DNA of 64,000 nucleotides from Notolepis coatsorum (Eukaryota > Chordata > Actinopteri > Aulopiformes > Paralepididae): NCBI GenBank assembly GCA_963971535.1, contig OZ020585.1:23652236-23716235 (forward strand), written 5' to 3'. Each line of letters opens with the position of its first letter. The stretch's first letter is position 1. The notes beneath the pieces are model-generated. The model was not told where the DNA came from. It searched no databases and worked only from the letters and a program-made list of their open reading frames with translations. Positions 16,420-48,242 of the stretch are shown here, piece by piece. Made by a program: the position numbers and the translations under genes.

Positions 16420-17328
16420 ACATCTTCATCAATCAGCCAGGTGGAGAGGTATCACTATTGATCCGTCCGTGATTGACACACTTTATATTTATCTATTATT
16501 AAATAGATTTGCACCACATTCATACCTCATTTGCACCCTACCCCAAGTTTTTGTACCTCTGCATTCTACCTCACTGTTACTCCCTTTACTCTGTATTGTA
16601 TATTATATATGTATATTGACTTTACCTACTTTTTACTTCTTACATTTTTTTTTACTTACTTTCTGTTTACTGTATGTAGCACACTCTCATCGGCTCATAC
16701 AGAAACACGCATTTCATTATAAAGTATTCTGTATTTTGTTCTGACAAATAATAAACAAACTTGAACTTGAAACTTGATCTTCATGATTTAGCCAGGTGGA
16801 GCCATCACTATTGATTTTCATGATTCAGCCAGGTGAAAGTATAACTATTGATCTTCATGATTCAGCCAGGTGAAAGTATCACTATTGATCTTCATGATTC
16901 AGCCAGGTGAAAGTATCACTATTGATCTTCATGATTCAGCCAGGTGAAAGTATCACTATTGATCTTCATGATTCAGCCAGGTGAAAGTATCACTATTGAT
17001 CTTCATGATTCAGCCAGGTGGAGCTATCACTATTGATCTTCATCAATCAGCTAGGTGAGGTGGAGCTACTGTATCACTATTGATCTGCATCAATCAGCCA
17101 AGTGGAGCTACTGTATCACTATTGATCTGCATCAATCAGCCAGGTGGAGGTACTGTATCACTATTGATCTTCATCAATCAGCCAAGTGGAGGTACTGTAT
17201 CACTATTGATCTTCATCAATCAGCCAGGTGGAGGTTTTGTATCACTATTGATCTTGATCATTCAGCCAGGTGGAGGCACTGTATTACTATTGATCTTGAT
17301 CATTCAGCCAGGTGGATCCATCACTATT
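16420..17328. repeat. Minisatellite, 37-42 bp unit
   Basis: The unit is built on TATCACTATTGATCTTCAT followed by GATTCAGCCAGGTG. Units near 16800-17040 are about 37 bp and near 17050-17330 about 42 bp, with the variant CATCAATCAGCCAGGTGGAG. One unit lies before 16466 and two lie beyond 32848, so the array was split by an L2 end and by the large insertion at 17329-32847. Confidence 0.92.
16466..16772 (+). mobile_element. L2 3' end inserted in minisatellite
   Basis: It resembles the L2 3' UTR at 11690-12069 (CACTTTATATTTAT, then AAAGTATTCTGTA) and has the same tail (AACTTGAACTTGAAACTTG). TTGATC occurs on both sides, although part of the right copy could come from the tail. Only the last 300 bp are present, a typical 5'-truncated insertion. 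Confidence 0.78.
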
Positions 17329-17715
17329 CTGCCCTGTGAAGGCAGACCGCAGTAACTTCCAAACAGTGAAACTGAGAAAAATGGCTTTAAAGTTTTTTGA
17401 CTTGCCATCCAAAATGTGTTATAGGTAGATAGATGATAGTACGCAGATTTAACATGTATTAATGAAGTAATCTTTAGGCATACAAAAATATGACGTAATT
17501 ATTTTAATTAACCCCAAAAAAGCAGATACTGCACTCTGCTGCACGATTTCCTTAAATAATTATACAGGTAATGTACAGGCAAAGTGCAGTAACTTAAAAT
17601 ACAATGTTGTTTTCCCTCCAGCTTTCATAACTTAACCTAGCCATTTTATTTGGATCATCATCATTCCAATATATTCAGGTGTTAAATTTCATTTTCAAAA
17701 TGGCTAGGTTAAGTT

Positions 17716-17903
17716 CTATGACGTTAATGGATTGCTCAGCACCTGTTCTGCACTGTACTTCACTTCGTGCACAAGCACTGAATAAAACATTCCACCATGT
17801 ACCTTTACCTCCCAACATCCGTCTGACCACACCCCCTTCCGCTTACCTTCATAAGCAGGTGTGTGGCCACCTACTCGCCTCCTTCTTCACTTTCACCACA
17901 AGG
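17716..17903 (+). repeat. DIRS-like left inverted terminal repeat
   Basis: It starts CTATGACGTTAATGG and runs through CCACCATGTACC to CACCACAAGG. It matches the reverse complement of 32183-32374 with few differences, except in the outer 25 bases, where the two ends have different versions. Confidence 0.85.
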
Positions 17904-19081
17904 AAGTGCCTTCGGTAGATCCCCACTTGACGAGGTTGTTAGTAGAAGAAAGTTGGAAAACTAAAGAACGGGAAGATACGTTGACATATCTTTATTTTCT
18001 CTCTCACTATTTTCGAGAAAATACGGCGATATTGTCTTCGTCACTGGAGTGTCTGGAAGATGATGATCATTCTACACCTCCACCGGTTTTTTCGTATTAG
18101 GAGCTCACGCCGCTGACATGCTTCCCAACTACAATCCTCCTTGCTGCGGCTGGATGGGGTAAAAACCCTCCAGCAACACAGCTGGACTGTAGGACGCACC
18201 GACTGTTGTGAGAAGCGGTGGTTTCCAGGTTGGGTATGTACTGTTTTGCTTGCGAGTTCTGGTTGTTGTTGATGCTATGGGGGTTAGCTAACAATGCAAG
18301 TGAAATGCTTCTCTGTTTTTCTCCCCCTGGGTTTGAAGCTAACAACAACTCTGCTCGGCTTAAAACGGCGGTCGGAGGATCTTGGCCTGACGCCCATGAT
18401 GGCTAAATCTAGTGGCCCGCGCTAGGTTCTAGTGATCCCAGGATTCTAGAGCGGATGCTTCTCTGTCCTGTGTAGCTCATGCAAGCTACACTACAAGAAC
18501 ATGGCAAAAATAGCTAGCTACATCGGCACTACTTTTTTTTTTTTTTTTTTTTTTACTTCGTGATCAAGTTTCCACCAAACAAATAGGCAGGAAAAAAATT
18601 CTCAGTTTGATTGTTTATTATAAAACTGAAACAAGCCCTCGGTCTGGCTTTTTGTGTCATCCTTTTAACATGAACTTGTATTATGTACAAAATCCAGGAA
18701 GGCAAGTTTAGCTGAGTGCAGCCTCTACAAATGAAAAGAAAGAGACCATTTGGTTTTATCAGTTTTTATAGTATAGTTTGTTGATTACTTTTGATGCAGT
18801 AATGGTCTTTTTCTTTTCTATTCTATCTTTATGTATTATTTATCCCTAAACTCTGCATCTTCTGAAACCTGCCCACTTTATCAACCAAAAACACACTTCT
18901 TCAATATCTGAATTGTTTTACTTCATTTTACTAGTATTATGCTACCATGTATATACTACTACCAACTATGCTAATATGTCTATACTACTACAGTATGTAC
19001 TCAGAGTATAACACTCAAGCTTGACACTGACAAACAATACTACTTATCCTTGGCTGCTAGATATGTACCACTCCTGCTGAC

Positions 19082-19235
19082 TTGTTGTACACAATTTGTA
19101 AGTTGCTTTGAATGAAAGTGTCAGCTAAATGACCAAATGTATTTAAATATGTAACTCACAAAACATTCCATGGCCCCAAAATCATGTGGGGACCCCCCTG
19201 GGGGTCCTGTCCCACAGGTTGAGAACCATTGCTTT
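19082..19235 (+). mobile_element. Retroposon tail and hAT-like end
   Basis: TTGTAAGTTGCTTTGAATGA followed by AAGTGTCAGCTAAATGACC resembles the widespread fish LINE/SINE 3' tail ending in CTAAATG repeats. At 19197-19232 the sequence GGGGGTCCTGTCCCACAGG then TTGAGAACCATTG resembles a Charlie-like hAT end. Their partner ends are not evident. Confidence 0.45.
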
Positions 19236-19789
19236 TCCCTCTTTTTTTCTTTTCTCCACCCCCATAATATTGTTCATTTTCTGCCTACAGTGAAACATCA
19301 TCATGATAGCAGCTATCTGTTAGTTAAAGCTGTTGACAAAAAGTGTACTGACTTGTGTGCTGTTTGTGAACAGTTGATTTTCATCAGCTCACCTGAATGT
19401 GTTCTCAAGTTAGTGCTGGACGTGTTGAGAGCAGCATATGTTTTAGCCGTTTTTTCAGTCAAACTCATAAATGTGTCCCAGATAGGGCCATGGAGAGGCA
19501 TTGTTGTTATTGACATCATCATCTTCATCAATGCCATCGAACCCCTCTGCCATTTCGCGCGGACTAGTTCATGTAATCCGTTAAATTGCATTCATTCAGT
19601 ACGTATGTTTTGATTTTCACTTCCTGCTTTGCGGCTGGAGTCCCGCCCTATCCTGCCTCTGATTGGCCTACCCGTAATGTTTTGGCCTACCATACCCAAT
19701 CGTGAGTCGTCATACTCATATCTAAACCTTAACCAACCAACCAATCATAGTGGGTTTTTTACGGGGAGTTTTTTTTTCTTCTAGTCTAG

Positions 19790-19972
19790 ACTGTTTCTCC
19801 CGAAAGTAGCGTGTAACGTTTCCTCGTCGCTATGTTACTACTTCGTTCTATAAATAGCTCCGCTAAAGAGACCGCTACCCTGGTTAAAAAGTAGCGACGC
19901 TACCAGCACGCGACTGAGAATTGTAGTTAAGCTATGTAGCGTCGCTACTTGTAGCTAGCTACTGCCCATCAC
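19790..19972 (-). mobile_element. hAT-like terminal segment
   Basis: The right edge, reverse-complemented, is CAGTGATGGGCAGTAGCTAG, a hAT-type terminus. The 180 bases inside it carry repeated GTAGCG/CGCTAC motifs in both orientations (e.g. AAGTAGCGACGCTACC), resembling subterminal transposase sites. I do not find a convincing opposite end. Confidence 0.5.
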
Positions 19973-20135
19973 TGCTCACAACTAAGGGGGTTAATTAACC
20001 TATAAAGCTATGCTTAGTAACATATGAGTGAAGAATGAATTCTTTTCTCAGCCTGTAATGACAATGAACAGTGTGTTCACATATTAACAGGGTTATCTGT
20101 TCAACTGGGCCGTATCAAGGGTAAGGTAGGAGGGG

Positions 20136-21534
20136 TGTAACTGAGGGGTACAATTCCCTGACTGTATTGTTAAGTATGGTAATATTAAACCACTACCTCT
20201 TGTACTTTAACTTCTGGCCATCCAGTACATGATATAAATATGATGAACACTTTCCCACCTGATGAAACGAAGTCCACACAAATGTACAAATCGAATATTT
20301 AATATAGCAAAAGGTATATACAACGTTCACTTGTTTACACTTATGATTTGAAATGCACTTGTATGGCAAATGAGTATTCGTAGGTAAATCAACATTGAAT
20401 GTCCAATCTCTGGTTACGCAGGGAGTAAGTATACAACCCGTTTCTTTAGGGAACTATAGCGATGGTACTTAAATGATTATAGCTGGATACACTAAGGGGG
20501 GGGGGGGGTGTCCCGCTGGTTGTAAGACAGTAGGAGGGGGGGGGGGTTAGAGAAGCCGCTGGCGGTATCCCATCTGGCCGACGATTTCTTGGGAGAATTC
20601 AAAGTCTTGAACACGGTGCCCACAGAACCTCGGTCCGCAGACGAATACAGCTGGACCCTCTGGTGGACGGTAGCTGCCGGTCCACAACGGAGAGACGTGA
20701 GGCGACCTCACTGGTGTAGAGCGCCGTCTCACCTTGCTCCTCTCCGGGGGGTAGTTCCAACACTCCACAGTGTTGGCCGTTATCCATGGAATAATCAAAG
20801 CACCCAAAGCATAATCCAAGCCGTGGAAGGCTCGCCGTCGTCCGGGTAGAGTAATCCAATGTACAGGTCCAGTCGCCCTGGCCCGGAGCTCCTCGGATGC
20901 AAGCACCACTAGTGGTCTGCCCAGCCTGGTTAAGACTCCAGATAACGTCAGGAACGATGGGGGTACTGATAACTTTATAACTCTAACCGACGATGCACCA
21001 TACATAAATAGACTATTATTAGCTTAATAGAATACGTCCAACTCGACGGTATAGTGCCAAACTATGACAATTCAACTATTAATCCACACGATATCTCAAT
21101 GCCTATTCTGAGGCCAAGTAGGCCTTACTGCACCACACGTGCGTCGTGGGTGAGGCTTCGCGTCTGTTACTCGGTTGGAGGGTAAAGAACTAATGGACTA
21201 AAAGAAAGTTCTACTTTACTTGCGCCATATATATATGCGCTGTGAACAAATAGTACCATTCGTATTTCGCCAGACGTATTCCTACGCGGAACCGGGCTTG
21301 CCACGACATGTTGGGCGGCACGATTGAACTTGAACCTAGGGGTATGGCTACTGGCGCCAGGTTCTCGTCCAATGGTAGAATGAAACTATTATGGGCTGTT
21401 TAGTAGACTAAAGGGATATTCAGTGCATATTGTACAAGGAATATACAGGGGATATCAAACGATATACAAATACTATTTAAATATATATATATAAATAAAT
21501 ATATATATTCGGTTTAATCTGATCCTTCACAACA
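20136..21534 (-). repeat. BEL 3' LTR
   Basis: 1399 bp, nearly identical to 27837-29232. It contains G runs at 20500 and 20537, an AT-rich stretch at 21480-21510, and a 152-codon frame on minus (20547-21005) that is also open in the other LTR. Confidence 0.93.
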
Positions 21535-21627
21535 GCCGCCCCCTAATTAGTCCCACCTAATTAGCTAAACAGAGACAGATTAACCGCACTGTCTACCACT
21601 CAAGGTCCGCTGTAAGGGTCAGTCAAC

Positions 21628-24600
21628 TCACAAAGTCATGGGGTCATGGTCATCATCGATAGTATCTGGGAGTCGGGGCAGTTCTATTAGCCTCGCCACG
21701 GGTCGTGTGTAAGTTCGCCCCTGGACGAGTACTTCAGCTGCTCGGACCTTGCCATCGGCACCGGTGATCACTTTGCTTACGCGGCCAGCCGGCCACATAG
21801 CTCTGGGTAGTGACTGGTCGATAATCATGACGACTGTTCCTTCTGTCAAATTGTCTCTCTCTTTTACCCACTTCTGGCGGGTCTGTAGAGACGGTAGGTA
21901 GTGGAGTAGGAAGCTGCTCCAAAACTTGTCAGCTAGTACTTGACTGTACCTCCACATTCTTCGGCCGTTCGCTTCTTCAGGCCTGTACATTGTCTGGGGT
22001 AGCGCGGGGTCCAGCCGCCCCATTAAGAGTGTGTTGGGGGTGACTGGGTCGACATCTGCTACATCACTGGAGACGTAACCGAGGGGTTTTGAGTTCAATA
22101 CTCCCTCGATCTCCGTGAGGACTGTCATTAGGACTTCTTCCGCCACAGTCTGGGCCCCAAGCACGGCGTACAGGGCTGTCTTTATAGAACGTACTTCTCG
22201 TTCCCAGGTTCCACCGAAGTGGGGTGCGTTCGGGGGATTAAACTGGAAGTCAATCTGGGATGGAGCGAGGTGGGTCTTAAGTTCTGGGCCCATAGCTTGG
22301 AAGCTCTCTCTCAGCTCTCTTTCTCCGCCTTTGAAGTTTGTCCCGTGATCAGACAACAATGTAGACGGTTTTCCTTTCCGTGATGTGAATCTTCGGAAGG
22401 CCATAAGGAATGAGTCTGTGCTCATGGTCAGAAGGAGCTCGATATGTATCGCTCTGGTGGTCATGCATTTGAATACAATACCCCACCGCTTCTCGGTTCC
22501 TCTTCCTCTCTTTATATACAACGGGCCAAAACAGTCCATGCCTGTGGAGTGGAATGGCTTGTCGCCGAGTCGGAGGCGACAGGGAGGTATGTCAGCCATC
22601 CGTGGTATGCTGGGCTGCGCGCGCCACTTTCGGCAGTCTAGACAGGTTCGCTGGAAGCGTCGCACCGCTTCTCTTCCTTGAAGTATCCAATAGCGACGTC
22701 TGATCTCCGCGAAGACTCTCTCTGCTCCTGCGTGGTGTACATCCTCGTCGTATTTCTTTATGATCAGCTCTGTGACCTTGTGTCGGCTGTTCAAGACTAT
22801 CGGGTACTTAATGTCATCCGGTAGATCGGGGGCTCTCCGCAGGCGACCACCCACTCTGATGAGATTATGGGCGTCACTCTCGGGTGCCAGGTGGAGCAGT
22901 CTGCTGTCTGATGGGACGGGCTTTCCTCCCTGTAGACAGTCTAGCTCATCGGGGAACGAGTCTCTCTGGGCTCGTTGTAGTAGAAGAAGTTCTGCTTCTT
23001 CGTAGTCAGCTGCTGACATATCAGTGGTGGACTGAATCTCTGGGTGGTGCCACAGGAATGTCCTCTGCTGCGCACTCTCTAGGGTAATGCAGTCATCTAT
23101 GTTGGGGTCTGTGGAGGCGACTGTGCTCAGTCCACAGAACATAGGTTTCTTGTTCTCAGCCTCCTCGTTACTTGCTTCCCGTGGGGTGGGCGTAGGCCAC
23201 TCTTCTTCGGGGAGCTTGAGGAATTCTGGTCCGTCACTGTAGATGTTGCGACGGGTGAGGTCATCCAGAGACATTCCCCGGGTGATGACGTCAGCTGGGT
23301 TGTGTTTGGTGTCCACATACCGCCAGCTCGCTGCTTCTGTTAACTCTTGAATCTCGGTGACTCTGACTCCCACGAAGACTTTGTATCTGCATGAATCAGA
23401 CTTGATCCATATGAGTACTGTCGTGGAATCTGACCACAAGATTGTTCTGTGCACCGGAATGGTGAGTTCACGTTGGATTAACGTGGCTAGATGCGCTCCT
23501 GCTAGGGCTGCGCAGAGCTCTAGACGCGGGATAGATTGTTGCTTTCGTGGGGCTATTCTTGAGCGGGCCAGGATGAAAGCAGTGTGTATCTTTCCTCCCT
23601 TCTCTTGGGCACGCAAGTAGGCTACCGATCCATAGGCTACTTCGGAGGCATCGCTGAAGACGTGTAGATCAATCTTGCATGTCTCTGGCCTCACTGTGGA
23701 TGGGAAGTAGCTGCGGCGTATATTGACGCCTGGGAGTGAGCGGAGTTCCGTCTCCCACTCTCTCCATGTTGAGGCAAGGTGTGCGGGTATTGGGTCGTCC
23801 CAGCCCTGGTCCTTGTCCCACAGTGCTCGTACAATCATCTTTGCCCTGGTGGTGTAAGGTAGAATACATCCCAACGGGTCATATTGTCTGGCGAGTGTTC
23901 TGTACACACTCCGTCTGGTGGTCGGTGTCGCAGTCGACCTTCCCGGCTCTGGAGTCAGGGGTTTGTGTCTATAGTGGAGCGAGTCTGTTTTGAAGCGCCA
24001 GACTAGTCCTAGTGTCATTTCTTGGGCTTCTCCTGGGATGGTCGCCATCCAGGTCTCGCTGCTGGCAGCCTTGTCCGCGGGGGAGAGGCTGCGCAATACG
24101 TGCAGGTCACTGCTGGCCCACTGCCTGAGATCAAAGCCGCCTTTGATCAGGGAGGCGCGTAGCTTGATTAGGAGAGCCTCGGCTTCTTGTTGAGTCGAAA
24201 CGCTTTGTAAACAGTTGTCCACGTAGAAACTGTTCTTCACACTGTGTCGGACCTCTTCATCTGCTGTTGGGTCCTCTGCGACGTGTTTCTGTAGTGCAAA
24301 TGTAGCACAGCACGGGCTGCATGTGGTTCCGAAGGGGAGTACTTCCCACTGGTAGATGGCTGGGTTCTCATCTCCGATCCTCTCTCTCCATAGTAACCGC
24401 AGCAGGGGCTTGTCCTCCTCCACTAGTCTCACCTGCAGGAACATCCCTTTGATATCCCCGCTGATAGCCACCTTGTCCTGGCGGAAGCGCAGTAGCACGC
24501 CTAGTAGGGAGGGGCCGAGTGTGGGGCCGGGCAAGAGCTCTTTATTCAGATTTTGGGATCCGATCTGGTAGCTGCAGTTAAACACAATGCGATCCTTGCC

Positions 24601-26550
24601 GTTGTGGTGGACCTTGTGATGCGGCACGTACCATGATTCGGTCGTCTGATCGGCCTCTTTAATGTCAATCTTTGTCACGTGTCCCGCTGTGATTAGCTTC
24701 TCAATCTCAGCGCGGTACACACTCTCTTGAGCGGGGTCTTTGGCTAGGCGCCGCTCTGTGTTCAATAGATAGCGCTCCGTGGCGTCTTTCTTTGCGTGAA
24801 AGGTGGGCATTCCCTCTCGCCTCAGGAGTGGAGTTGCGTATCTCATCACTCCGCCGACTGTGACTCTCTTTGTCCCCTGCTCGAGTAGGTTGATGGCGTA
24901 AATGTCTTCTTTAGAACGAATATCTTTCTTTTCGTTCTTAAAGGGCATTGTCTCTAGTGTCCATAGCCTCTCGACATGCTGCAGGAGAGTGGTGTCTTCT
25001 TCTGTCGTTCTGGAGTGGAGGCAGCTAGTGGCTGCTGTTCGGTTGAGAGATTTAGCGAGGGGGCCTTGTAGTGTCCACCCTAGGCGGGTCTCGGCTGCTG
25101 CAGGACAGCCTCGGGGTCCTGTATGGACCCGGTCAATCGGGACTATGAGTTCTGCATGGTCGGAGCCTATCAGCAGGGTCGGGGTAGCGCCGTCTATGAG
25201 CGGGATAGGTAGTTGTCGCAGGTGCACATATTTATCCATCAACTTGGCGATAGGGTAGGTGTACTGCGATAGTCCTATTTCTTGGCTGGTGAAAGCATTT
25301 GTAATCCTATACCGTCGCTCTGGCTGCCCGTTTGCTGTGATAGTGAAGGAGACATTCTCGCCCTTTATCGTCTTTAAATCTCTTCTTATTGTCCGAATCG
25401 TCATTTCGTTCTTGCTCCCCCGCAGTCCCAGCTGGGCCGCAGCGGACGCGAGCAGAAGGGTCTTCTCTGACCCGTCATCAAGGACGGCGTAAGTGTCCAT
25501 GACTTTATCTTGGTAGCTCAATGTCACACGGACTACCTTTAAGAGCACTTGGGCGCCGCTGCTGCTGGCGGGGTCAATGTACATGACACTTGCCTTGGTG
25601 CCGCTCGATGGTGCAGGTGAAGGCCGTCTTCTGTTACTTTCGTGTAGTATATCTAGATGGGCTCCGTTGCACCGACTGCACCTTTTCTTTAGGCGGCATT
25701 CGGCTGCCATGTGTGGTCGCGCACATCGGTAACAGCGCCTGTTGGACTTTATCCATTGACTCACTTCTTCTGCATTCATCTTTGTGAACAGGTCACATTG
25801 TGACAGCCAGTGTTCTTTCTCACAGTAGGGGCATACCATCTTCCACTTCTCTTTTCTCGAGGGGGTACTGTGGCTCTTACTGCTCGGTACTGACTCTGAT
25901 TGGTGCATGACAGTCACCGATCTTCTTCCATCATTTATTCTCCTGGGTCCCTCTCTGGAGCTTGGCGTGCTCCGCCCGAATGTATCCAGTCGTAAGCTGC
26001 TGACTTCTCTCGCCAGGAAGTCGGCTAGATCAAGGAGGGATGGTTCGGGGCCGTTAGGATCCCGGTAGTCTCTCTGCCGCCTAAAACGCTCTTGTCTTGC
26101 GGGTGGCAGCTTCTCCAAAATCCTCTCGACGTTAGAGTTGGCGTATAGCTCATGCATGCCCTTTTCCCGTTGCGCTCCCAGCATCCCTACCAGGGACTGC
26201 ACTTTGATTGACAGGTCGTCTAATGAGCGATTGTCTGTTGCTGGGGGTAGGCGATCAATATGCCTTATCTCTTGGATTACATAATCCCATATACATCCAT
26301 ATCTCTGGTCCAGCGCTGCTAGGGCCGCTGTGTATGGTGTCGTAGAGGTGGCATAGGCTAGCGCTATATTGTGCGCTCGCGGTACTTTCAGGTGCTTCAG
26401 TAATATTGCATACTTGTGGCGTTCATCAGCGACATCCACCATCATTGTCTCTAAGCACATCCGGAGCTCCGTGTACTGTGCTCGACTCTCATAGGCGAAG
26501 TCTGGAAACGACGGCGTGGCAATGTATGACGCCGTGGATGGCTGATACAT
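21628..26550 (-). CDS. BEL/Pao Gag-Pol polyprotein (DUF1759-PR-RT-RH-IN)
   Basis: 1640 codons, fully open. Residues 1-190 resemble the DUF1759 gag domain. Three zinc-binding clusters follow at about 240-303 (CPYC..., CYRCARPHMAAEC, CSRCNGAHLDILH). The aspartic protease has LDDGSEKTLL at 357-366. The RT has GDIKGMF (Asp699) and FYVDNC at 775-780, where the second Asp of the usual YVDD is Asn. RNase H has FSDAS (965-969) and WSDSTT. The integrase has an HHCC-type zinc segment (about 1272-1306, CLDC) and catalytic Asp1339, Asp1401 and Glu1450. A conserved C-terminal domain ends it. Function: polyprotein processing, reverse transcription and integration. It starts at an ATG, but the same frame is open upstream to the TGA at 26773-26775. 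Confidence 0.93.
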   Translation of the reverse strand: MYQPSTASYIATPSFPDFAYESRAQYTELRMCLETMMVDVADERHKYAILLKHLKVPRAHNIALAYATSTTPYTAALAALDQRYGCIWDYVIQEIRHIDRLPPATDNRSLDDLSIKVQSLVGMLGAQREKGMHELYANSNVERILEKLPPARQERFRRQRDYRDPNGPEPSLLDLADFLAREVSSLRLDTFGRSTPSSREGPRRINDGRRSVTVMHQSESVPSSKSHSTPSRKEKWKMVCPYCEKEHWLSQCDLFTKMNAEEVSQWIKSNRRCYRCARPHMAAECRLKKRCSRCNGAHLDILHESNRRRPSPAPSSGTKASVMYIDPASSSGAQVLLKVVRVTLSYQDKVMDTYAVLDDGSEKTLLLASAAAQLGLRGSKNEMTIRTIRRDLKTIKGENVSFTITANGQPERRYRITNAFTSQEIGLSQYTYPIAKLMDKYVHLRQLPIPLIDGATPTLLIGSDHAELIVPIDRVHTGPRGCPAAAETRLGWTLQGPLAKSLNRTAATSCLHSRTTEEDTTLLQHVERLWTLETMPFKNEKKDIRSKEDIYAINLLEQGTKRVTVGGVMRYATPLLRREGMPTFHAKKDATERYLLNTERRLAKDPAQESVYRAEIEKLITAGHVTKIDIKEADQTTESWYVPHHKVHHNGKDRIVFNCSYQIGSQNLNKELLPGPTLGPSLLGVLLRFRQDKVAISGDIKGMFLQVRLVEEDKPLLRLLWRERIGDENPAIYQWEVLPFGTTCSPCCATFALQKHVAEDPTADEEVRHSVKNSFYVDNCLQSVSTQQEAEALLIKLRASLIKGGFDLRQWASSDLHVLRSLSPADKAASSETWMATIPGEAQEMTLGLVWRFKTDSLHYRHKPLTPEPGRSTATPTTRRSVYRTLARQYDPLGCILPYTTRAKMIVRALWDKDQGWDDPIPAHLASTWREWETELRSLPGVNIRRSYFPSTVRPETCKIDLHVFSDASEVAYGSVAYLRAQEKGGKIHTAFILARSRIAPRKQQSIPRLELCAALAGAHLATLIQRELTIPVHRTILWSDSTTVLIWIKSDSCRYKVFVGVRVTEIQELTEAASWRYVDTKHNPADVITRGMSLDDLTRRNIYSDGPEFLKLPEEEWPTPTPREASNEEAENKKPMFCGLSTVASTDPNIDDCITLESAQQRTFLWHHPEIQSTTDMSAADYEEAELLLLQRAQRDSFPDELDCLQGGKPVPSDSRLLHLAPESDAHNLIRVGGRLRRAPDLPDDIKYPIVLNSRHKVTELIIKKYDEDVHHAGAERVFAEIRRRYWILQGREAVRRFQRTCLDCRKWRAQPSIPRMADIPPCRLRLGDKPFHSTGMDCFGPLYIKRGRGTEKRWGIVFKCMTTRAIHIELLLTMSTDSFLMAFRRFTSRKGKPSTLLSDHGTNFKGGERELRESFQAMGPELKTHLAPSQIDFQFNPPNAPHFGGTWEREVRSIKTALYAVLGAQTVAEEVLMTVLTEIEGVLNSKPLGYVSSDVADVDPVTPNTLLMGRLDPALPQTMYRPEEANGRRMWRYSQVLADKFWSSFLLHYLPSLQTRQKWVKERDNLTEGTVVMIIDQSLPRAMWPAGRVSKVITGADGKVRAAEVLVQGRTYTRPVARLIELPRLPDTIDDDHDPMTL

Positions 26551-26772
26551 CGGCGAGCGCTGGGGGAGAGACCTCCTAGGTGAGTCCCCTCTTGCGCCTC
26601 TCTGTGGGCTGGTACTGACAGGGTACCATGGCCCGCTGGTCCAGGTGCTATTCCTCGGGGCTGGTCGTGCATCGTGCTCACCCGTGAATAGAGTCGGGGG
26701 TCTGTAGCGCAGCGCCGCGGGGGTATAGCCTGGGCTGTACTGGACCTCCTGGTCCGGTGGAGTACTGTGCTG

Positions 26773-27768
26773 TCATCGGGCTTGGTTCTCCTCCTCTCCC
26801 TCTTCTTCCTCTATCAGGTCTTCCAGATCCTGTAATCGTTTATTTAGCTTCTCCGCAGTGTATGCCGCTCCTTCCTTGTAGCTGGGTCTCGCTTGGACCG
26901 GTCTGGGAAGGGGGTCTGCGGGGGGTATAGGCCTGGTCTGTTGGTCAAGTTCAGGGTCGCTTGTTCGGTTAGGAGACGCTGCCCTTGACTGTTGTCTCGA
27001 CGAGTTCCTTGAACCCCTGGCGGAGGGAGAGGGTGTTGCCTTGTGGATCAGCTGCTCCATTAGCTGCGCTTGTAACTTGTCGCGCTCGACTTCGCGCTTG
27101 GTGAGATCTGCTTCTCTTTGGGCACCGGCAGCGGCGCGCTGGGCGTCGGCCCGGTCTCTTGCCATATTCTCTTCCGTCTGAAGGCGTCTCATCTCCAGGC
27201 GTGTGCGCTCTTCTTCGCTCCGTTGCTGTGCTTGGAGTCGATCGCGTTCGCCCTGAAGTCGGTCGCGTTCGGTAGAGGCTGTCAGGCTGACGAGGAACGC
27301 CTGTTGTAGCATCCTCTCCGCTTCGCTGGGGGAAGGCGGTTGTGGAGGTGAGCCGCTCCTGGGTGAGCCGCTCCTGGGTGTACTCGTTGGGGAGTCCTGG
27401 AGCTCTATTTCTTCGGCGCTCTCCTCCTCTTCTTCCGTGCAGAGTTCTCTCTCTGTAGGGTTGTCTTCCTCCCGGGGCTGGTCGGGGACTACTTCTTCGG
27501 TAGTGGCGGGGGGTAAAGGCATGTCAGCTCCCTCCTGGTCTCCACCGTGAGCTTGGTCAGTTACATTAGAACCTACTAGGGTCTCTGTGGTCGGGGAAAC
27601 CTGGTCGTTAAGGTCAGACATAATTTTACTTTCTACTTTTACCGCGTTTACCGTTTGTCGAAGGCTAGGTAGTTGACTGACAGCGTAATCCTCTAGGTAC
27701 TGAGGTGTCTGTCGTCTGCGCCGCGGGCGTTCTAGGTTAGGAGGACCGTTTCGTGGAGTGTTCATCAT
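26773..27768 (-). CDS. BEL/Pao N-terminal Gag-like ORF
   Basis: 331 codons from the ATG at 27768, about 70 nt after the 5' LTR. Near the start is a basic patch (ERPRRRRQTP), then an acidic Glu-rich region (EEEEESAEEIELQD) and a Ser/Pro stretch. A long charged coiled coil lies at about residues 149-242 (repeated RDRLQ, ERTRLEMRRLQTEEN), then a Ser/Arg-rich tail and a final Glu-rich segment. It stops at TGA (26773-26775) in the same frame as the downstream polyprotein, with about 75 further open codons before the next ATG. It probably acts in particle assembly. Either the TGA is read through, or this copy has a nonsense mutation, or the two ORFs are translated separately. Confidence 0.8.
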   Translation of the reverse strand: MMNTPRNGPPNLERPRRRRQTPQYLEDYAVSQLPSLRQTVNAVKVESKIMSDLNDQVSPTTETLVGSNVTDQAHGGDQEGADMPLPPATTEEVVPDQPREEDNPTERELCTEEEEESAEEIELQDSPTSTPRSGSPRSGSPPQPPSPSEAERMLQQAFLVSLTASTERDRLQGERDRLQAQQRSEEERTRLEMRRLQTEENMARDRADAQRAAAGAQREADLTKREVERDKLQAQLMEQLIHKATPSPSARGSRNSSRQQSRAASPNRTSDPELDQQTRPIPPADPLPRPVQARPSYKEGAAYTAEKLNKRLQDLEDLIEEEEGEEENQAR

Positions 27769-27817
27769 AGGCCATTTTAATATTAATAACACTATATTAA
27801 TATTACACTAGTTACCA

Positions 27818-27834
27818 TCCGGCTCGAAGGACCA
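27818..27834 (-). promoter_or_regulatory. BEL primer binding site, tRNA-Tyr
   Basis: In element sense, TGGTCCTTCGAGCCGGA lies 2 nt after the 5' LTR. It is complementary to the 3' end of tRNA-Tyr (…TCCGGCTCGAAGGA plus CCA) as I know that tRNA, over 17 bases. Confidence 0.88.
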
Positions 27835-27836
27835 AT

Positions 27837-29232
27837 TGTAACTGAGGGGTACAATTCCCTGACTGTATTGTTAAGTATGGTAATATTAAACCACTACCTC
27901 TTGTACTTTAACTTCTGGCCATCCAGTACATGATATAAATATGATGAACACTTTCCCACCTGATGAAACGAAGTCCACACAAATGTACAAATCGAATATT
28001 TAATATAGCAAAAGGTATATACAACGTTCACTTGTTTACACTTATGATTTGAAATGCACTTGTATGGCAAATGAGTATTCGTAGGTAAATCAACATTGAA
28101 TGTCCAATCTCTGGTTACGCAGGGAGTAAGTATACAACCCGTTTCTTTAGGGAACTATAGCGATGGTACTTAAATGATTATAGCTGGATACACTAAGGGG
28201 GGGGGGGTGTCCCGCTGGTTGTAAGACAGTAGGAGGGGGGGGGGTTAGAGAAGCCGCTGGCGGTATCCCATCTGGCCGACGATTTCTTGGGAGAATTCAA
28301 AGTCTTGAACACGGTGCCCACAGAACCTCGGTCCGCAGACGAATACAGCTGGACCCTCTGGTGGACGGTAGCTGCCGGTCCACAACGGAGAGACGTGAGG
28401 CGACCTCACTGGTGTAGAGCGCCGTCTCACCTTGCTCCTCTCCGGGGGGTAGTTCCAACACTCCGCAGTGTTGGCCGTTATCCATGGAATAATCAAAGCA
28501 CCCAAAGCATAATCCAAGCCGTGGAAGGCTCGCCGTCGTCCGGGTAGAGTAATCCAATGTACAGGTCCAGTCGCCCTGGCCCGGAGCTCCTCGGATGCAA
28601 GCACCACTAGTGGTCTGCCCAGCCTGGTTAAGACTTCAGATAACGTCAGGAACGATGGGGGTACTGATAACTTTATAACTCTAACCGACGATGCACCATA
28701 CATAAATAGACTATTATTAGCTTAATAGAATACGTCCAACTCGACGGTATAGTGCCAAACTATGACAATTCAACTATTAATCCACATGATATCTCAATGC
28801 CTATTCTGAGGCCAAGTAGGCCTTACTGCACCACACGTGCGTCGTGGGTGAGGCTTCGCGTCTGTTACTCGGTTGGAGGGTAAAGAACTAATGGACTAAA
28901 AGAAAGTTCTACTTTACTTGCGCCATATATATATGCGCTGTGAACAAATAGTACCATTCGTATTTCGCCAGACGTATTCCTACGCGGAACCGGGCTTGCC
29001 ACGACATGTTGGGCGGCACGATTGAACTTGAACCTAGGGGTATGGCTGCTGGCGCCAGGTTCTCGTCCAATGGTAGAATGAAACTATTATGGGCTGTTTA
29101 GTAGACTAAAGGGATATTCAGTGCATATTGTACAAGGAATATACAGGGGATATCAAACGATATACAAATACTATTTAAATATATATATATAAATAAATAT
29201 ATATATTCGGTTTAATCTGATCCTTCACAACA
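27837..29232 (-). repeat. BEL 5' LTR
   Basis: 1396 bp, the upstream LTR in element orientation. It differs from the 3' LTR at about four bases (e.g. CACTCCGCAGTG against CACTCCACAGTG) and in G-run lengths. Its 152-codon minus frame (28245-28703) differs from the partner at two residues. Confidence 0.93.
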
Positions 29233-29237
29233 AGGGG

Positions 29238-32069
29238 TGTTCCCCCCGGTTCCCTGGGGCTTCACCACTCTCCTCTCAGACATGTTGTTTACAATATATT
29301 GTGTCACTGTGTTGTGGGGATACGATGTAACCCTTAGCTTAGTTGCTGGGGTTGTGCTAACCGCTTGAGGAACTATATTTTCCTAAAGAAAAGATTGTTT
29401 GGTCGCTTTTCGTGTGTGCTTAGCAAGGCCTGTGGCCGATACTAATCAAGGATTCTGTATTCTCTCGTTATGAAAAACGGCGTTCCTCTGTAGCAAGAGT
29501 GTACTTGCCATTCTTTGTTGTGATAAAGGGTTGTGTGTGTCTTGTGATCTATAACTGGGTTAGGTTGGCCACAGAAGCACATGTGTAAGTCTGGTACTGG
29601 GGCTCTTAAGGGGGCCCTCTCTATTCTGTGTTTTTCCTTAGTAAAAATCAGATAGCAGGTTAGCACATGAGCTGTGTGAAGCTGTTAGACACTTCATGTA
29701 GCTGACTATGACTGTGTCATGCTCTTTTTTGTCATTACATCGTATCATGGGTGTGGGGTCGTAAAGGGGTGAACTGGTAATCCTTTCCTCCCCTTTTGAT
29801 GTCCTTCAAGGTTCCTGTCACGTTGCTGTTCGGCACGTTACAGGGTAAGAGGGGGGGGGGGGGGAGTTTCCTGGTCCCACGCCCTGGAAGATTGGGCGTG
29901 TGCACCGCAGAAATCCCCCCGCCATAGAGTACGTCACTGTGCGCGTCTCTGTTGGTAAGACTTCCGTGAGTTGTGCAGGTCCATATGATGGATCTGTTTC
30001 AGGGAGTAGTCAGGGCTCCTCCTCACGAAGCTCCTACTTGGGCCTTCTGTGAGTTAGGACTCTCCTTCCCTGTGAGGGAGCCTCCTCAGAGTCCTGCTCT
30101 ATTGTGTGTGTATTCGATTCAATTCGATTATTGAGTGTGTATTGGTTCAGTGCCTCCTCCTCGGAGAGCCCTAACCCTAATTACATAGCTCAATGTTGCA
30201 ATATATTCTTTTCAATCTATACAGCTCACGTGGGAAGTCTCTCTGGGGATTTCCGTCTCCTCCCTATGGGAGGGTGGTGGGATGTAAAAATGTAAAAAAA
30301 ATGTACCCTCAGCTGCGTCACAAGGGATTCATGTCAGTATGTGTTCTTTCTTTTTTGAAAAAAAAAGGCGACTTGGAGGAACAATGTTTGGTGTCTTGTT
30401 AGACTATCCATTGATGTGTTTGGGTCTCGACGCATACATAGTGCTGGCTCGGTGTGTTTCTGTTACAGAATCACACAGGGGCTAAGTGCGCCTTGGTTGC
30501 TTGTTAAAACAGCGTTTTTATAGGGCAACTGGGATGGAGTTTTGTCTCTTCCGAGCGCCAGTTTATTAGGTTGTCTCGATGAATTCTCGTTCATATCTGG
30601 GCGATGTTAACAGAATAGATCAGAACATATGTAGAGGGGTCTCACGCCCTTGGGGTGGGCCACTGAGCACGGTCCAAATGGGACCTTCTGGGTGGCGCCC
30701 TCTTTTCATGTTTTAGATCGACACGCATACCTACCCCCTCTTCTGGAGTGGGCATGTCGGCGTGGTTAGGACACGGGACTGGTCTGGTCACGCTGGTCCA
30801 GGTCAGTTAACCCGTTGTCCGCCGGGGATGCAGATCTGCTGTTCTGGTACCCTGAGGGACTTGGGTTTTTTCAGGGGGAAAAAATGCTGGGTCGGCCCGG
30901 GGTGTCACAAGGTTAGGCGTTATGGAGACCCTTGTTGGGTACTTTGTACCTGGCACTATCATGGGGGCTGGTTCTCCTTTCTTCGCTCCTCTCTCACGCA
31001 TGGCGAAGAGAGGGCTGTTGGGGTGGTCTTCTGGACCTCCTCTGGTAACCCTGTGTACTTCCCGAGCCGCCGGGCCCGGTCCAAAGTAAAGTTTTGTTGA
31101 TACCGTAGGCCTGGGATAACCCTTTTTTGAAAACTGAAACACTTGTACTGCGGTATAGCCAGTGTATGCCCGCAGGTGTGTTTTGGAGTTTTTTCTTGAG
31201 GGGTTATAGGAACAACCACCGTCGGTACCAAGAGGGTGGTTGATTCCCTGGTGTGTTGGAGCAGTGTCAACTCCCGGGTTACCCGGTTGAGTGTGCCCCT
31301 GCACGTTCATGACGTCTGCCAATCATGTCAGCCTTCTCTGCCTCGACCCCTCTGGGTGGGTTTTTTTTAATGGAGGCTTCGTCATGGTGATCAACAACGC
31401 CAGCGTCCGCCCCTTCCGCCGGGAGGGCTGTTTCCAGCTGACTCCTTTGGCGCCTGTCTCGTCCGCAGTGCTCCAGGCTCAGGTTACAGCCTGTTGCCTG
31501 GTTTCCCCGGTGCGCTACCTGCTTCCGTTGGTTAACATTTTTGTGTGCTTACGGCCATGCTGACTGCCTGTTCTGCAGGGTCAGTGTGCCAGGCGGTGTG
31601 CTATTGGGGGGAAAGGGCCCGCTCTTGGAGGGGCCTTATCCGAATACGCTGGCGATGTGGGGGGCGGTGTCTTGATGCCTGGCGTCATTGACCTCTCCGG
31701 GCCCCCGTTTTCCAGGGGGTCCAGTCCCTTCAGTGGGTCTGGGTCTTCCTTCGCGCTCCGCTGCTACGGCCTTGCCACGGGGTTGGGTTTGCGAGGTTGT
31801 TCCTTCCGTTCGTTCCCGGGTGGCATGCGGGTTGTGCGTGTGTGTAGTCGTGGGGTCAAGCCACGGTCTGCTCACCCTGTGCATTGAGTTGCTTGAGTGC
31901 CTCTTCGCACGGTCGGATCCGTCTCCCTCCCGTGAACCTCCAATAGGGGGGGGTATCCTCCATTAGGGAGGGTCGGGGGGGCTCGGTCCTCCCCGGTCTG
32001 ATGGTTGTGGGGGGCCTCAGCGGGGTACATTTGTCGGGCTATGGCTCCCGCTCAGCCCCTGTTGCAGAT
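29238..32069. other. DIRS-like interior, right part, no clear gene
   Basis: Higher GC than the surroundings, with G/C runs at 29849-29865 and many short frames but none above 171 codons. None shows an RT YxDD box or a tyrosine-recombinase signature that I can see. It belongs to the DIRS-like element by position. CTCCCTATGGGAGG near 30262 is a short palindrome. Confidence 0.5.
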
Positions 32070-32157
32070 CAGGTGCTGAGCAATCCATTAACGTCATAGA
32101 ACGAAGGGTTATGTATGTAACCCAGTTCTATGAGTTAAATGGTGCGCTCAGCACCTG
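32070..32157. repeat. DIRS-like internal complementary region, 88 bp
   Basis: The left part (CAGGTGCTGAGCAATCCATT...) is the reverse complement of the left terminus at 17714-17746. The right part (...TTAAATGGTGCGCTCAGC) is the reverse complement of the right terminus at 32342-32399, including its extension (TTATGTATGTAACCCAG). In the DIRS model this block templates joining of the two ends into a circle. Confidence 0.8.
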
Positions 32158-32182
32158 GACGCCGCTGCGGCCCTTGATCTCA

Positions 32183-32399
32183 CCTTGTGGTGAAAGTTTG
32201 GGAAGGAGGCGAGTAGGTGGCCACACACCTGCTTATGAAGGTAAGCGGAAGGGGGTGTGGTCAGACGGATGTTGGGAGGTAAAGGTACATGGTGGAATTT
32301 TTTATTCAGTGCTCGTGCACGAAGTGAAGTACAGTGCAGAACAGGTGCTGAGCGCACCATTTAACTCATAGAACTGGGTTATATACATAACCCTTCGTT
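32183..32399 (-). repeat. DIRS-like right inverted terminal repeat with extension
   Basis: 32183-32374 mirrors the left repeat. 32375-32399 is an extra 25 bases (GGGTTATATACATAACCC is itself palindromic) ending in GTT, after which the fold-back arm resumes with ATGAAAGC. Confidence 0.82.
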
Positions 32400-32847
32400 A
32401 TGAAAGCTGGAGGGAAAACAACATTGTATTTGAAGTTACTGCACTTTGCCTGTACATTACCTGTATAATTATTTAAGGAAATCGTGCAGCAGAGTGCAGT
32501 ATCTGCTTTTTTGGGGTTAATTAAAATAATTACGTCATATTTTTGTATGCCTAAAGATTACTTCATTAATACATGTTAAATCTGGGTACTATCATCTATC
32601 TACCTATAACACAGTTTGGATGGCAAGTCAAAAAACGTTAAAGCCATTTTTCTCAGTTTGGAAGTTACTGCGGTCTGCCTGGGTTTTGAGTGTGATTTTG
32701 TAGTTACTGCAGTTTTTAAAACCCCATATCTCCAAAACTGAGCGACATTAACATCTAAAACTTGGTCACAAGATAAAACATTTATTGACAAGTTCAATTT
32801 CACTCATAACTAAATTCGAGTTACTGCGGTTAGCCTTGACAGGGCAG

Positions 32848-32945
32848 TATTGATCTTGATCATTCAGCCAGGTGGAGCCATGACTATTGATCTTGATCAT
32901 TCAGCCAGGTGGAGGCACTGTATCACTATTGATCTTCATTGTTCA
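32848..32945. repeat. Minisatellite continuation
   Basis: Two and a half units (ATCTTGATCATTCAGCCAGG) of the array at 16420-17328 lie beyond the fold-back element, proving that the element split the array. Confidence 0.92.
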
Positions 32946-43404: not shown

Positions 43405-44279
43405 AAAAACATTTGTGAGATAATATTCCTACACCTCATTATGAAACAAGAATCTATATGGTTAGTAGGGAAAATTGCAGATATTTAGTTTCAAGTTTCA
43501 AGTTTCTTTAATAGTTGTCATACAGAAGTACAGAATACTTTTATACAAAATGCTTCTTTCTGTTACGCTCCAGAGACTGTGCTAGACAAAAGATAAGTAT
43601 GAAATAAAATAGTATAGCATGTAAAAATAGAAGTAGAAATAGAAGTAAAAATAGAAGTCACTTACGTGAACACACAGTGTTCAGTATATACATATGTACA
43701 ATGTTCGATGCAGAATAGAAGTAACTGAGTTATCATACAATATACAATATACTATGTGTTACAGGTACCAGGATATGGCACCTGATAGCAGAGATATGTT
43801 TAACCTATGAAACAGGTTGTAGTTAATCATTTGACAAAGGAAAGGTGCAGACACGATGTTATTGACTCTGGCTCCTCCCGGTTGTATATTTCAACAACAT
43901 TTATTCATTCAATAGAATAATCAATCAATCATCATCATCATTGTATCATCATTGTATCATCATTGTATCATCATTGTATAATCATTGTATCATCATTGTA
44001 TCATCATTGTATCATCATTGTATCATCATTGTATAATCATTGTATCATTTAGTTACATTACTTCAATACATTCAATTATAATCCCATACTTGTTATTAAT
44101 TCAAAAGCATATTCATCATTGCAACACACATTCTACCCTTTTAGGATACCCTGGTTCACTTCAATAGCATTTTCCTTTTAAATGTAGTTATCCAGTATTA
44201 TATACTGTACATTGTGATTACTTATGTCTTTATACATATTTGGCGTCTTAAATATAAGCACGTGAGAAGAGAAACATTA

Positions 44280-47200
44280 GTTCAAGTTCAAGTTCAAGTT
44301 CTTTAATAGTTGTCATACAGAAGTACAGAATACTTTCATACAAAATGCTTCTTACTGTTACGCTCCAGAGACTGTGCTAGACAAGATAGTATCAAATAAC
44401 ATAATAACATAATATAGCATGAATTTAGAAGAAGAAAATGAGGTCACAGTGTTCGGTATAGACATATGTACAATGTTCTGAGTTACCATATAATATACAA
44501 TACACAATACTATGCAGTGTACTAATGTACAGTACTATCTAGTGCAAAGCAGAAATGGGATGAGGTACAATTTTAGGTACAATTTACAGTAAGGTGTACG
44601 AGTTGTAGTGCAATCCTTCATCCATAAATATAAAGTGTGGGGAGTGGGTGCTACAGTGTGTTTGTTTAAAGTGGGTGTGTGCTATAAGTGTGTGGAGTGG
44701 GTGCTACAGTGTGTTTGTTTAAAGTGAGTGTGTGCGTGTGGATGTGTGTGCTATGTGCGTTTGGTGGTTGTTGTTGTGTAGTGTTCATTCATTGTTCGTT
44801 TAGCAGCCTGATGGCCTGGGGATAGAAGCTTCTTCTGAGTCTTTCTGTGCTCGCCTTGAGACTCCTGTATCGCTTGCCTGACCGCAGCAGTTCAAAGAGG
44901 CAGTTGTTCGGGTGACTGGAGTCTTTAATGATTCTCTTAGCCTTGCCCTTGCAACGCTTGTAGTAAATGTTCTGGAGGGTGGGGAGCCCCCCTCCAATTG
45001 TGCGTTCGGCTGAACGTGTCACTCTTTGTAGTCTGCTTTGGTCTTGTGCAGTGCTATTCCCAAACCAGGAGGTGATGTTGCCGGTCAAGATGCTCTCTAT
45101 TGTACATGAGTAGAAGTTCTTAAGGATCTTCTGGCTGACTTGGAACTTCCTTAGGCGCCTGAGGAAGTAGAGGCGTTGTCGTGCCTTCTTCACAACACTG
45201 TTAATGTGTGTGGTCCATGTCAAGTCCTCGGATATGTAGGCTCCGAGGTACTTAAAGCTGTTGACTCTCTCAACCGGTGCCCCGTCGATGCTGAGGGGGC
45301 TGTAGTCCTTGACCCCCGACCTCCTGAAGTCCACAATCATCTCCTTTGTTTTGCTGACGTTCAGGGAGAGGCTGTTTTCCTGGCACCATCCCGCCAGGAC
45401 CTTGACCTCTTCCAGGTAGGCCCTCTCGTCGTTGGCAGAGATCAGGCCCACCACCACTGTGTCGTCAGCAAATTTGACGATTGTATTGCTACTCCGCTGA
45501 GCCACACAGTCGTGTGTGTACAGGGAGTAGAGGAGGGGACTCAGAACACAGCCCTGGGGGGCCCCTATGTTGAGGGTGATTGATGAGGAGGTGCAGTTGC
45601 CTGCTCTCACCACCTGGGGTCTGCCAGTCAGGAAGTCCAAGACCCACTGGCAGAGGTCATAGCCCAAGCCCAGGTCCCTGAGCTTGGCTATGAGTATGGA
45701 GGGGACTATGGTATTGAATGCCGAGCTGTAGTCGATGAATAGCATTCTCACATAGTTCCCCTGCCTCTTGTCCAGGTGTGATACTGCTGTGTGCAGCACA
45801 TGGGATATGGCGTCCTCCGTGGACCTGTTGGGGCGGTATGCAAATTGCAGGGGGTCCATGTTGATGGGGAGGGAGGAGCAGATGTAGCCCTTTACTAGCT
45901 TATCGAAGCACTTCATGGCTATGGAGGTGAGAGCTACAGGGCGGTAGTCGTTGAGGCAAGCAGGCTTGGATTTTTTGGGTACAGGGATAATAGTGGACTT
46001 CTTCAGGCAGGTGGGGATGACAGCCTGTTCTAAGGACAGGTTAAATATGTCAGTGAATACTGGGGCCAGTTGGTCGGCACAGACTTTTAGGACGCGGCCG
46101 GGGATGCCGTCTGGACCTGCTGCCTTCCTGATATTCACTTTTTTTAAAGGTCCGCCTCACCTCATGCTCTGTTACCCTGAACACTGCGCCTCCATCAGCA
46201 GCCGACCCCCCCCCCCCCCATTGCCGAGGCTTGTGAGCTGGTGTTGTTATTACCAGCATCAAACCTCGCATAGAAGGTATTGAGGTCATTTGCTAAGGAG
46301 ATGTCACTGTTCAGTTTGAGGGAGGCGCCTTTGTAGTCTGTCATCGTTTTGAGCCCTTGCCACATAGCTCTAGAGTCAGCTTGTTCAAACTGGAGTTCAA
46401 TTTTATCCCTGTAGCGTCGTTTGGCCTCTGACACAGTCCTCCTTACGTTGTATCGCGCCACCTTGTGGTCATTCATGTTGCCTGCCTCTAGGCCGTCGTT
46501 GTATGCTTTGGTGCGCTCTCTCAGAGCTTCACGGACGGATTTGTCTACCCAGGGTTTTTGATTTGGGTAAACTTTCATTTTGGTAGTGGGGATTGTTTCT
46601 TTCACCCTAGTACAAACATAGTCCAGCACTGTCTCCGTGTAGGCATTAATGTTATCTGTGTCGCGGAACACATTCCAGTCTGTGTTGTGAAACACTGACC
46701 GGATCGTATCCTCTGACGTCACATCCCATTTCTGCACCTCTCGCGAGACTACGGGAGTACTTTTAATTCTCTGTCTGTACTTCGGTGTAAGAAAAATTGA
46801 TGCGTGATCTGACTTACCGAAGCCACTATCAGAATGAGCCTTGTAGCCACTTTTAAATTGCGTGTAACAGTGATCTAGGATGTTACCGCCTCTGGTGTTG
46901 CAAGTCACATGCTGATAGAAGTCGGGCAATACCTTTCTCAGATTGGCGCTATTGAAATCTCCCAGAACTAAAATGGCGGCGTTAACATTCGCCTCTTGGA
47001 TTCTATTTACCTCGTCGTGTAGTCTGAAGAGCGCAACCTTGTTGCTGGCTTCAGCTTGCGGTGGAATATACACTCCGACCAGGACGATCGCCGTTAACTC
47101 CCTCGGGAGGAAGAAAGGACGACACTTGATGGTTATATATTCCAGTTCTGGGGAGCAGTGGTTGGATAATTCCTTCACGTTAGTTGGGTCACTCCAATTT

Positions 47201-47770
47201 TTGTTCAACATGAAGGCAATACCTCCTCCACGTTGTTTACCGGATTCTGCTGTTCTATCCTTGCGGTGAATGAAGAAATGATCGGCCGGTTGGATGGCGT
47301 GGTCTGGGACTTCTGGCGCCAGCCACGTCTCGATGAAGCAGAGAACGTTACAGTCCCTAACGTCTCTCTGGAATTGAATCCTTGCTCGGATGTCGTCTAG
47401 TTTATTGTCTATTGATTGTACATTGGCTAGCAATATACTGGGTAGTGGTGTCCTGTGCCGCCTGGTTCTCAGCCTGTTACGGACTCCAGCTCTCTTTCCT
47501 CGCCGTCTGGGTCCTTTGTCCCTGGGGGCGAGATCCGGTCCTGATGTCCTCAAGATCTCAACGGGCCATTGTTGCGGTTCAGAGAGCTGATCCAGAGAGT
47601 AATCCAGTCGGTAAGTTTCCCGTAATCCAATGTCTATAAGTGACTGACGGTCATACACATTAAATGCACCTACTGTTGGTACAGACAAAACTCTTAAAAC
47701 TATAAATATTAACAAAAGTATGCACAGACTCGACGGAGCGCACAGACAGGCAGCCGGTCGTAGCGGCGCC
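44280..47770 (-). mobile_element. L2 LINE, 3.5 kb, inserted in Gypsy LTR
   Basis: ATTA (possibly CATTA) flanks it at 44276-44279 and 47771-47774, and the LTR is continuous without it. It has the tail (GTTCAA)n at its 3' end, a 3' UTR at 44300-44788, an RT frame and an endonuclease frame. It is the most complete L2 of the window and the youngest layer of its nest. Confidence 0.92.
44789..46138 (-). CDS. L2 reverse transcriptase
   Basis: 449 codons: [17 protein letters not shown] (4-20), [19 protein letters not shown] (63-81), [11 protein letters not shown] with catalytic Asp136, [19 protein letters not shown] (192-210), FADDTVVVG (223-231) with the Asp pair, and [14 protein letters not shown]. 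It ends [13 protein letters not shown]. All motifs are intact. The frame is also open upstream of the nominal first codon (GTG) to the C14/G14 run at 46206-46219. That run separates it from the endonuclease frame, with which it would normally form one polypeptide for target-primed reverse transcription. Confidence 0.9.
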
Positions 47771-47772
47771 AT
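46195..47772 (-). CDS. L2 APE-type endonuclease
   Basis: 525 codons from an ATG whose first two bases come from the target site. A hydrophobic stretch lies at 17-30 (CILLLIFIVLRVLS) and a basic stretch at 83-107. The endonuclease follows: LLANVQSIDNKLD (115-127), CFIETWL with catalytic Glu148, GGGIAFMLN (182-190), VGVYIPPQ (232-239), LGDFNSANL (270-278) and GKSDHASIF (319-327). After it, a linker (YRDKIELQFEQADSRAMWQG) leads to the RT. The catalytic Glu, Asp-Asn and Asp-His residues are all present. The frame ends MGGGGVGC because of the 14-G run, which puts the RT in another frame. Confidence 0.9.
   Translation of the reverse strand: MAPLRPAACLCAPSSLCILLLIFIVLRVLSVPTVGAFNVYDRQSLIDIGLRETYRLDYSLDQLSEPQQWPVEILRTSGPDLAPRDKGPRRRGKRAGVRNRLRTRRHRTPLPSILLANVQSIDNKLDDIRARIQFQRDVRDCNVLCFIETWLAPEVPDHAIQPADHFFIHRKDRTAESGKQRGGGIAFMLNKNWSDPTNVKELSNHCSPELEYITIKCRPFFLPRELTAIVLVGVYIPPQAEASNKVALFRLHDEVNRIQEANVNAAILVLGDFNSANLRKVLPDFYQHVTCNTRGGNILDHCYTQFKSGYKAHSDSGFGKSDHASIFLTPKYRQRIKSTPVVSREVQKWDVTSEDTIRSVFHNTDWNVFRDTDNINAYTETVLDYVCTRVKETIPTTKMKVYPNQKPWVDKSVREALRERTKAYNDGLEAGNMNDHKVARYNVRRTVSEAKRRYRDKIELQFEQADSRAMWQGLKTMTDYKGASLKLNSDISLANDLNTFYARFDAGNNNTSSQASAMGGGGVGC

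Positions 47773-48145: not shown

Positions 48146-48242
<97 letters not shown>

Follow-up and report, generated by a model that had tools for sequence, protein, structure and literature searches.

A gene-less DIRS1-like element of the fish Notolepis coatsorum, very probably a non-autonomous retrotransposon

Three DIRS1-like elements of ray-finned fish, GaDIRS1 and GaDIRS2 of stickleback and TnDIRS1a of Tetraodon, are set out in table 3 of PMC3266345; they are 5.3-5.9 kb long and carry annotated pol and recombinase regions. An element with ends of this type, in which no gene is recognisable, resides in a 64,000-nucleotide stretch of the genome of Notolepis coatsorum (assembly GCA_963971535.1, contig OZ020585.1, positions 23,652,236 to 23,716,235, forward strand), hereafter the window. 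As here, the three fish elements start with GTT and have an AAC junction; GaDIRS1 and GaDIRS2 also end in GTT, TnDIRS1a in GAT. According to the same table, the right extension measures 26-27 bp in the three elements and 25 bp here, the divergent part of the inverted terminal repeats (ITRs) 19-21 and ~22 bp, the two halves of the internal complementary region (ICR) 36-46 and 56-57 bp against 40 and 58 bp, and the conserved part of the ITRs 144-148 against ~169 bp; target site duplications (TSDs) are missing from the published model, as they are here (PMC3266345). This terminal geometry would suggest a ray-finned fish as host. DIRS-1 of Dictyostelium, the founder, shares ITRs, two ICRs with a 3-bp overlap, a right extension and the lack of TSDs, and differs in encoding gag, recombinase and a reverse transcriptase (RT)/RNase H/methyltransferase protein; the DIRS1-2 entry differs in its TAA junction and in a conserved ITR part of 304 bp, as listed in PMC3266345. 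Related literature is found in PMC9210276, PMC5941688, PMC8498967 and PMC7599744. We regard the window element as very probably a non-autonomous DIRS1-like retrotransposon, with complete DIRS ends and an interior devoid of recognisable genes.

Elements without genes of their own occur in neighbouring groups. TOC1 of Chlamydomonas is a gene-less member of the order of recombinase-bearing retrotransposons, of PAT type and with split repeats, whereas a DIRS1-type ICR is found here. Gag-only or gene-less long terminal repeat (LTR) retrotransposons of plants, such as Dasheng, are amplified by a partner and have no pol of their own; they differ in being LTR elements with integrase and TSDs.

The coordinates of the element and of its surroundings are given in Table 1. 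Once a nested BEL/Pao element is removed, the window copy measures 5585 bp (2423 + 3162). The two ITRs are 94.3% identical across 193-194 columns, the outer ~22 bp differ between the ends, and the remainder, the conserved part, is nearly identical. The ICR spans 95 bp in total and lies directly inside the right ITR. Its two halves overlap on 32100-32102, AAC, the reverse complement of the GTT at the tips; as the halves share these bases, the two ends stand joined in the ICR, with only one GTT at the junction. The right extension is complementary to the ICR only. Inverted matches reach 292 bits for the ITRs, 102 for the right ICR and 69 for the left ICR, compared with 34.4 for the best inverted match scored in 20 dinucleotide-preserving shuffles of the element. 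GTT is present at both ends, a TSD is not; the flanks agree by 1 bp, a chance match. The near-palindrome GGTTAYRTAYRTAACC is found at 32107-32122, within the ICR, and at 32377-32392, within the right extension, and nowhere else in the window (shuffle mean 0.00); it is a possible candidate for a recombinase or priming site.

Much of this anatomy had been anticipated in a preliminary description made from the window alone. The ITRs of about 190 bp with different outer bases, the 25-bp right extension, the GTT at both junctions without a TSD, the length of 5.6 kb without the BEL element and the DIRS-like identity itself all hold, the latter on DNA-level DIRS1-like hallmarks and on sizes mostly near those published for the fish elements (PMC3266345, table 3). 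Two figures had to be amended. The internal block is complementary to both ends as described, and is longer than the 88 bp proposed; the segment to be removed as BEL, given as 20136-29237, starts at the right base and includes, at its end, five bases of TSD (29233-29237).

Table 1. Features of the DIRS1-like element, of its insertion target and of the nested element (window positions)
Feature	Positions	Strand	Remarks
Left part of palindromic MITE-like target (left arm, loop, start of right arm)	17329..17712		preceded by TATT
Left ITR	17713..17903	+	begins with GTT; outer ~22 bp are the divergent part
Left interior, common to other gene-less copies	17904..18475		
Segment absent from other gene-less copies fetched	18476..19974		includes dispersed repeat 19784-19974
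Interior left of BEL insertion, common to other gene-less copies	19975..20135		
Nested BEL/Pao element, outside the DIRS element proper	20136..29232	-	LTRs 99.5% identical; TSD AGGGG at 20131-20135 and 29233-29237
Right interior	29238..32062		six frames: no protein family; common to gene-less copies, from 30209 on also to gag-bearing copies
Left ICR	32063..32102	-	complement of left end, 39/40
Right ICR	32100..32157	-	complement of right end including extension, 57/58; AAC overlap with left ICR
Right ITR	32183..32374	-	
Right extension, 25 bp	32375..32399	-	terminal GTT
Remaining right arm of MITE-like palindrome	32397..32847		TATT after; target GTT is 32397-32399 or 17713-17715

The element is a member of a large DIRS1-like family and, no recombinase, RT or gag gene having been found in it, is not classed as an autonomous DIRS1-like element. 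A search of the host genome (3.42 Gb) returned 2798 first-look candidates for the left end, the best 40 of which were scored and are 97-100% identical, and 2710 for the right end plus ICR, the best 40 scored being 96-100% identical over at least 358 of 360 bases. Besides the window, 39 left-end places were scored, and stretches at 20 of these, designated by L numbers, were fetched. One, L019 on contig C2175, is the window locus again (99.8% identity in its first 875 bases, with the BEL element present), and is taken as its other haplotype. Both ends are clean in 13 fetched stretches, 14 copies with the window; left out of this count are L022 (right end interrupted), L031 (part of the right end gone) and L019, L020, L024, L033 and L035, in which the right end was not reached. 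All 14 clean copies have GTT at both ends and no consistent TSD. Flanks agree by 0 bp in nine of them, by 1 bp in four and by 3 bp in one (L036), a match that can be due to chance. A target duplication of variable sequence was not observed in these 14 copies, GTT alone being doubled. The full 95-bp ICR is present in 12 of the 15 fetched copies in which the right side was read.

Copies differ in what lies between the ends. On the left, 243 bp are common to nearly all of them. Past these, the left interior of the window recurs in 8 of 20 (L022, L024, L028, L029, L030, L033, L036, L037), and in five of these eight (L022, L029, L030, L036, L037) the right interior recurs as well, with different flanks at each site. 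Aligned blocks of these five gene-less copies are 88-100%, mostly 93-99%, identical to the window, and their longest open frame spans 202 aa. None contains the segment 18476-19974, in place of which a different sequence of ~0.8 kb is found in L029. When the two interior pieces of the window were scanned with Pfam in all six frames, no family was detected at E<=1, confirming the lack of an RT or tyrosine-recombinase frame noted previously, and no family was detected in L029, the only one of the five gene-less copies scanned whole. RT, RNase H, methyltransferase and DDE transposase are thus all missing from these scans of the window pieces and L029, as is tyrosine recombinase, for which sensitivity to the fish DIRS enzyme was uncontrolled; the same tool picked up RVT_1 in a piece of the BEL element and in frames of long interspersed nuclear elements (LINEs). 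The gag-like frame of copy L038, discussed below, has no tblastn match in the window or in any of the eight stretches sharing the left interior, and no Rfam family was found in the window. A long hAT-type frame in L028 is missing from the shared sequence of other copies and was therefore regarded as an insertion.

Because the same gene-less interior is found at several sites with different flanks, the window element was probably gene-less already when it moved, rather than emptied by local decay. If a gene-less interior moved, enzymes came from elsewhere, most likely from another element. The preliminary description had left the choice open between a decayed element and one mobilised in trans; the five other insertions, which retain most of the same interior, favour the second. 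A DIRS element that was once autonomous and lost its genes, by decay or deletion, in the window copy alone after insertion could account for the later damage that this copy has suffered, namely the BEL insertion and the segment 18476-19974, which replaces shared sequence. This history is improbable, being at odds both with the five copies found elsewhere and with the 97-100% identity of the ends among the best 40 scored copies, too young for full decay.

How the element entered its target can be read at the insertion site. It is located within one arm of a palindrome resembling a miniature inverted-repeat transposable element (MITE; 17329-32847, no family name assigned), whose arms are 96% identical over 292 bp and which is bordered by TATT on each side. 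The outer inverted repeat 17340-17631 / 32397-32680 (96%), overlooked in the preliminary description, belongs to this target. As the other arm keeps the pre-insertion sequence, the site provides a clean empty-site test. Flanks joined over one GTT form a 51-bp exact complement of the other arm, and the match extends to 219 bp at 99%; when the join was shifted by up to 6 bp either way, a perfect match (45/45) was obtained only for the four joins permitted by the shared GTT. Restoration of the other arm by this join indicates that insertion added only the element and one GTT. A second empty site is provided by L034, whose flanks, joined over GTT, match window positions 19781-19975 at 92%.

On the empty site alone, duplication of a 3-bp GTT and recombination at GTT look alike: one GTT before and two after are equally predicted by a DNA transposon that has long inverted repeats, uses a DDE transposase and duplicates a target that is always GTT. 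Constancy of GTT, together with the ICR, decides in favour of recombination. All 14 copies have GTT without variation, only one GTT lies between the two ends as joined in the ICR, the outer bases of the ends differ, one end carries an extension, and a related class of copies has a gag-like frame, so that a DNA transposon is most unlikely; no consistent TSD, no transposase in the interior and a full ICR in most copies were likewise the outcome of the checks on TSDs, transposase and complementary block proposed beforehand. The PAT and Ngaro groups, which also use a tyrosine recombinase, are described in PMC3266345 with split direct repeats, as against the inverted repeats and ICR found here, and membership in either is hardly credible.

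In three cases (L021, L026, L037) the DIRS copy stands at a GTT within tandem repeats of ~30 bp that are related to one another and may be favoured as a target. Interior sequence of gene-less copies, L029 for example, is matched at ~80% by the joined flanks of L032, so that this DIRS copy seems to have entered an older relative. The window palindrome is itself bordered by a 42-bp minisatellite (16774-17316, 32845-32939), beside or in which it inserted.

A second class of copies features a 562-aa gag-like frame, whole or partial, in 11 of 20 (L020, L021, L023, L025, L026, L027, L031, L032, L034, L035, L038). The frame starts ~0.3 kb inside the left end, and is intact in two of the 11, L034 (7150-8832) and L038 (761-2446). 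We take it to be Gag, given the position expected of a DIRS gag and an apparent resemblance. The class is large, with 18004 first-look candidates in the host genome, of which 77 matches were scored. Downstream of gag, no Pfam family was found in six frames of L038; the last ~2 kb of this copy are akin to the right interior of the window (blocks 76-96%). No relative of the frame was detected in viral contigs.

Purifying selection on the gag-like frame was not established by either nonsynonymous to synonymous substitution ratios (dN/dS) or stop counts. Mean dN/dS is 0.41 among six intact frames, four of these loci having been chosen by protein score; pooled values are 0.63 in nine copies picked by ITR and 0.42 in eight picked by protein score, and neutral simulation gives a median of 0.83 (0.49-1.46). 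Eight ITR-picked copies have 0 in-frame stops, where 90 private changes would lead one to expect 2.0 (P(0) = 0.13), and divergence of gag is about equal to that of the non-coding 3' region.

A source of the missing enzymes was sought in the same copies and in the whole genome. No DIRS RT or recombinase was found in the Pfam-scanned frames of L020, L025, L028, L032, L034 and L038 (selected frames), in L038 behind gag, in L029 or in the window. L020 was rejected as autonomous partner, its long RT frame matching R2 and LINE-1 chains and its 211-aa RT frame LINE-1; so was L032, whose frame matches RVT_1, ALKBH8_N and, weakly, an endonuclease, and is presumably of LINE type. Genome-wide, PF00589 has 18 matches and PF05869 none. 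All 18 places lie inside or overlap matches to a 419-aa recombinase of locus L060 (coordinates compared by eye), rejected as a DIRS recombinase, the surrounding 2.4 kb having no similarity to the element at E<=0.01. This protein matches DUF3504 and Phage_integrase, a combination which we take to be Crypton-like. Its frame (L060:269-1528; G000:C6:87968868-87970124) resides at nine genome places, and as these copies are 99-100% identical, full length and free of stops, the family has moved recently. A pattern of the DIRS ends had no match in viral contigs; matches in 10 prokaryote genome records were taken as chance.

Several observations weigh against classing the window element as a non-autonomous DIRS1-like retrotransposon. 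Movement via RNA and a circle is something we infer from the published DIRS model only. The conserved ITR part exceeds that of the three fish entries, and the ICR has deletions in 3 of 15 copies (L021, L030, L037), which may be later losses. No Pfam family matches the gag-like frame at E<=0.1, the Gag label being one of position and apparent resemblance. Among those copies that were fetched and scanned, no autonomous partner with the same ends was seen, and genome searches with PF00589 and PF05869, run with no fish DIRS protein as a positive control, gave no DIRS candidate; for want of that control, these negatives are insufficient to show the absence of an autonomous DIRS element.

With movement as a non-autonomous DIRS1-like element, and following the published model, RNA of the gene-less element would be copied by an RT supplied in trans. 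The ICR, which carries both ends joined over one GTT, would then guide completion of the ends into a circle, whose GTT would be recombined with a genomic GTT by a tyrosine recombinase, also supplied in trans. The BEL element entered the window copy later. A more specific arrangement is conceivable, in our estimate rather doubtful: that every DIRS element of this genome with such ends is either gene-less or gag-only, none being self-sufficient any longer, the gag-only class giving Gag and an unlinked, diverged partner giving RT and recombinase. The undecided state of selection on gag weakens the view that the gag-only class supplies a working Gag.

The nested element was recognised as BEL/Pao by two pieces of its long frame, which match Pao peptidase, RT and DUF5641 in Pfam. 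In L029, which lacks it, the DIRS interior passes directly from the equivalent of base 20135 to that of base 29238. The two main BEL frames of the window copy are uninterrupted (344 and 1714 aa), and the long one is broken into pieces of 747, 304 and 754 aa at the contig C2175 locus. Elsewhere in the window, a recent direct duplication involves 43757-48954 and 55678-57378. Blocks 43757-44279 and 55678-56200 are 100% identical, 47770-48954 and 56196-57378 are 99.5% identical; the first copy has a 3490-bp insertion (44280-47769) with CATTA on each side, missing in the second.

Phrase searches of the open-access literature for a non-autonomous DIRS family gave no paper, and among the papers listed by wider searches none had such a family as the subject of its title; the family may already be listed in Repbase. 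Were the population indeed made up of gene-less and gag-only elements, the DIRS order would include a non-autonomous system of two layers, similar to gag-only LTR elements in plants. What is known of DIRS replication in animals has mainly been deduced from anatomy. From a gene-less element that still moves one learns which parts can suffice in cis, namely both ends with the right extension, the ICR and the shared stretches that adjoin them.

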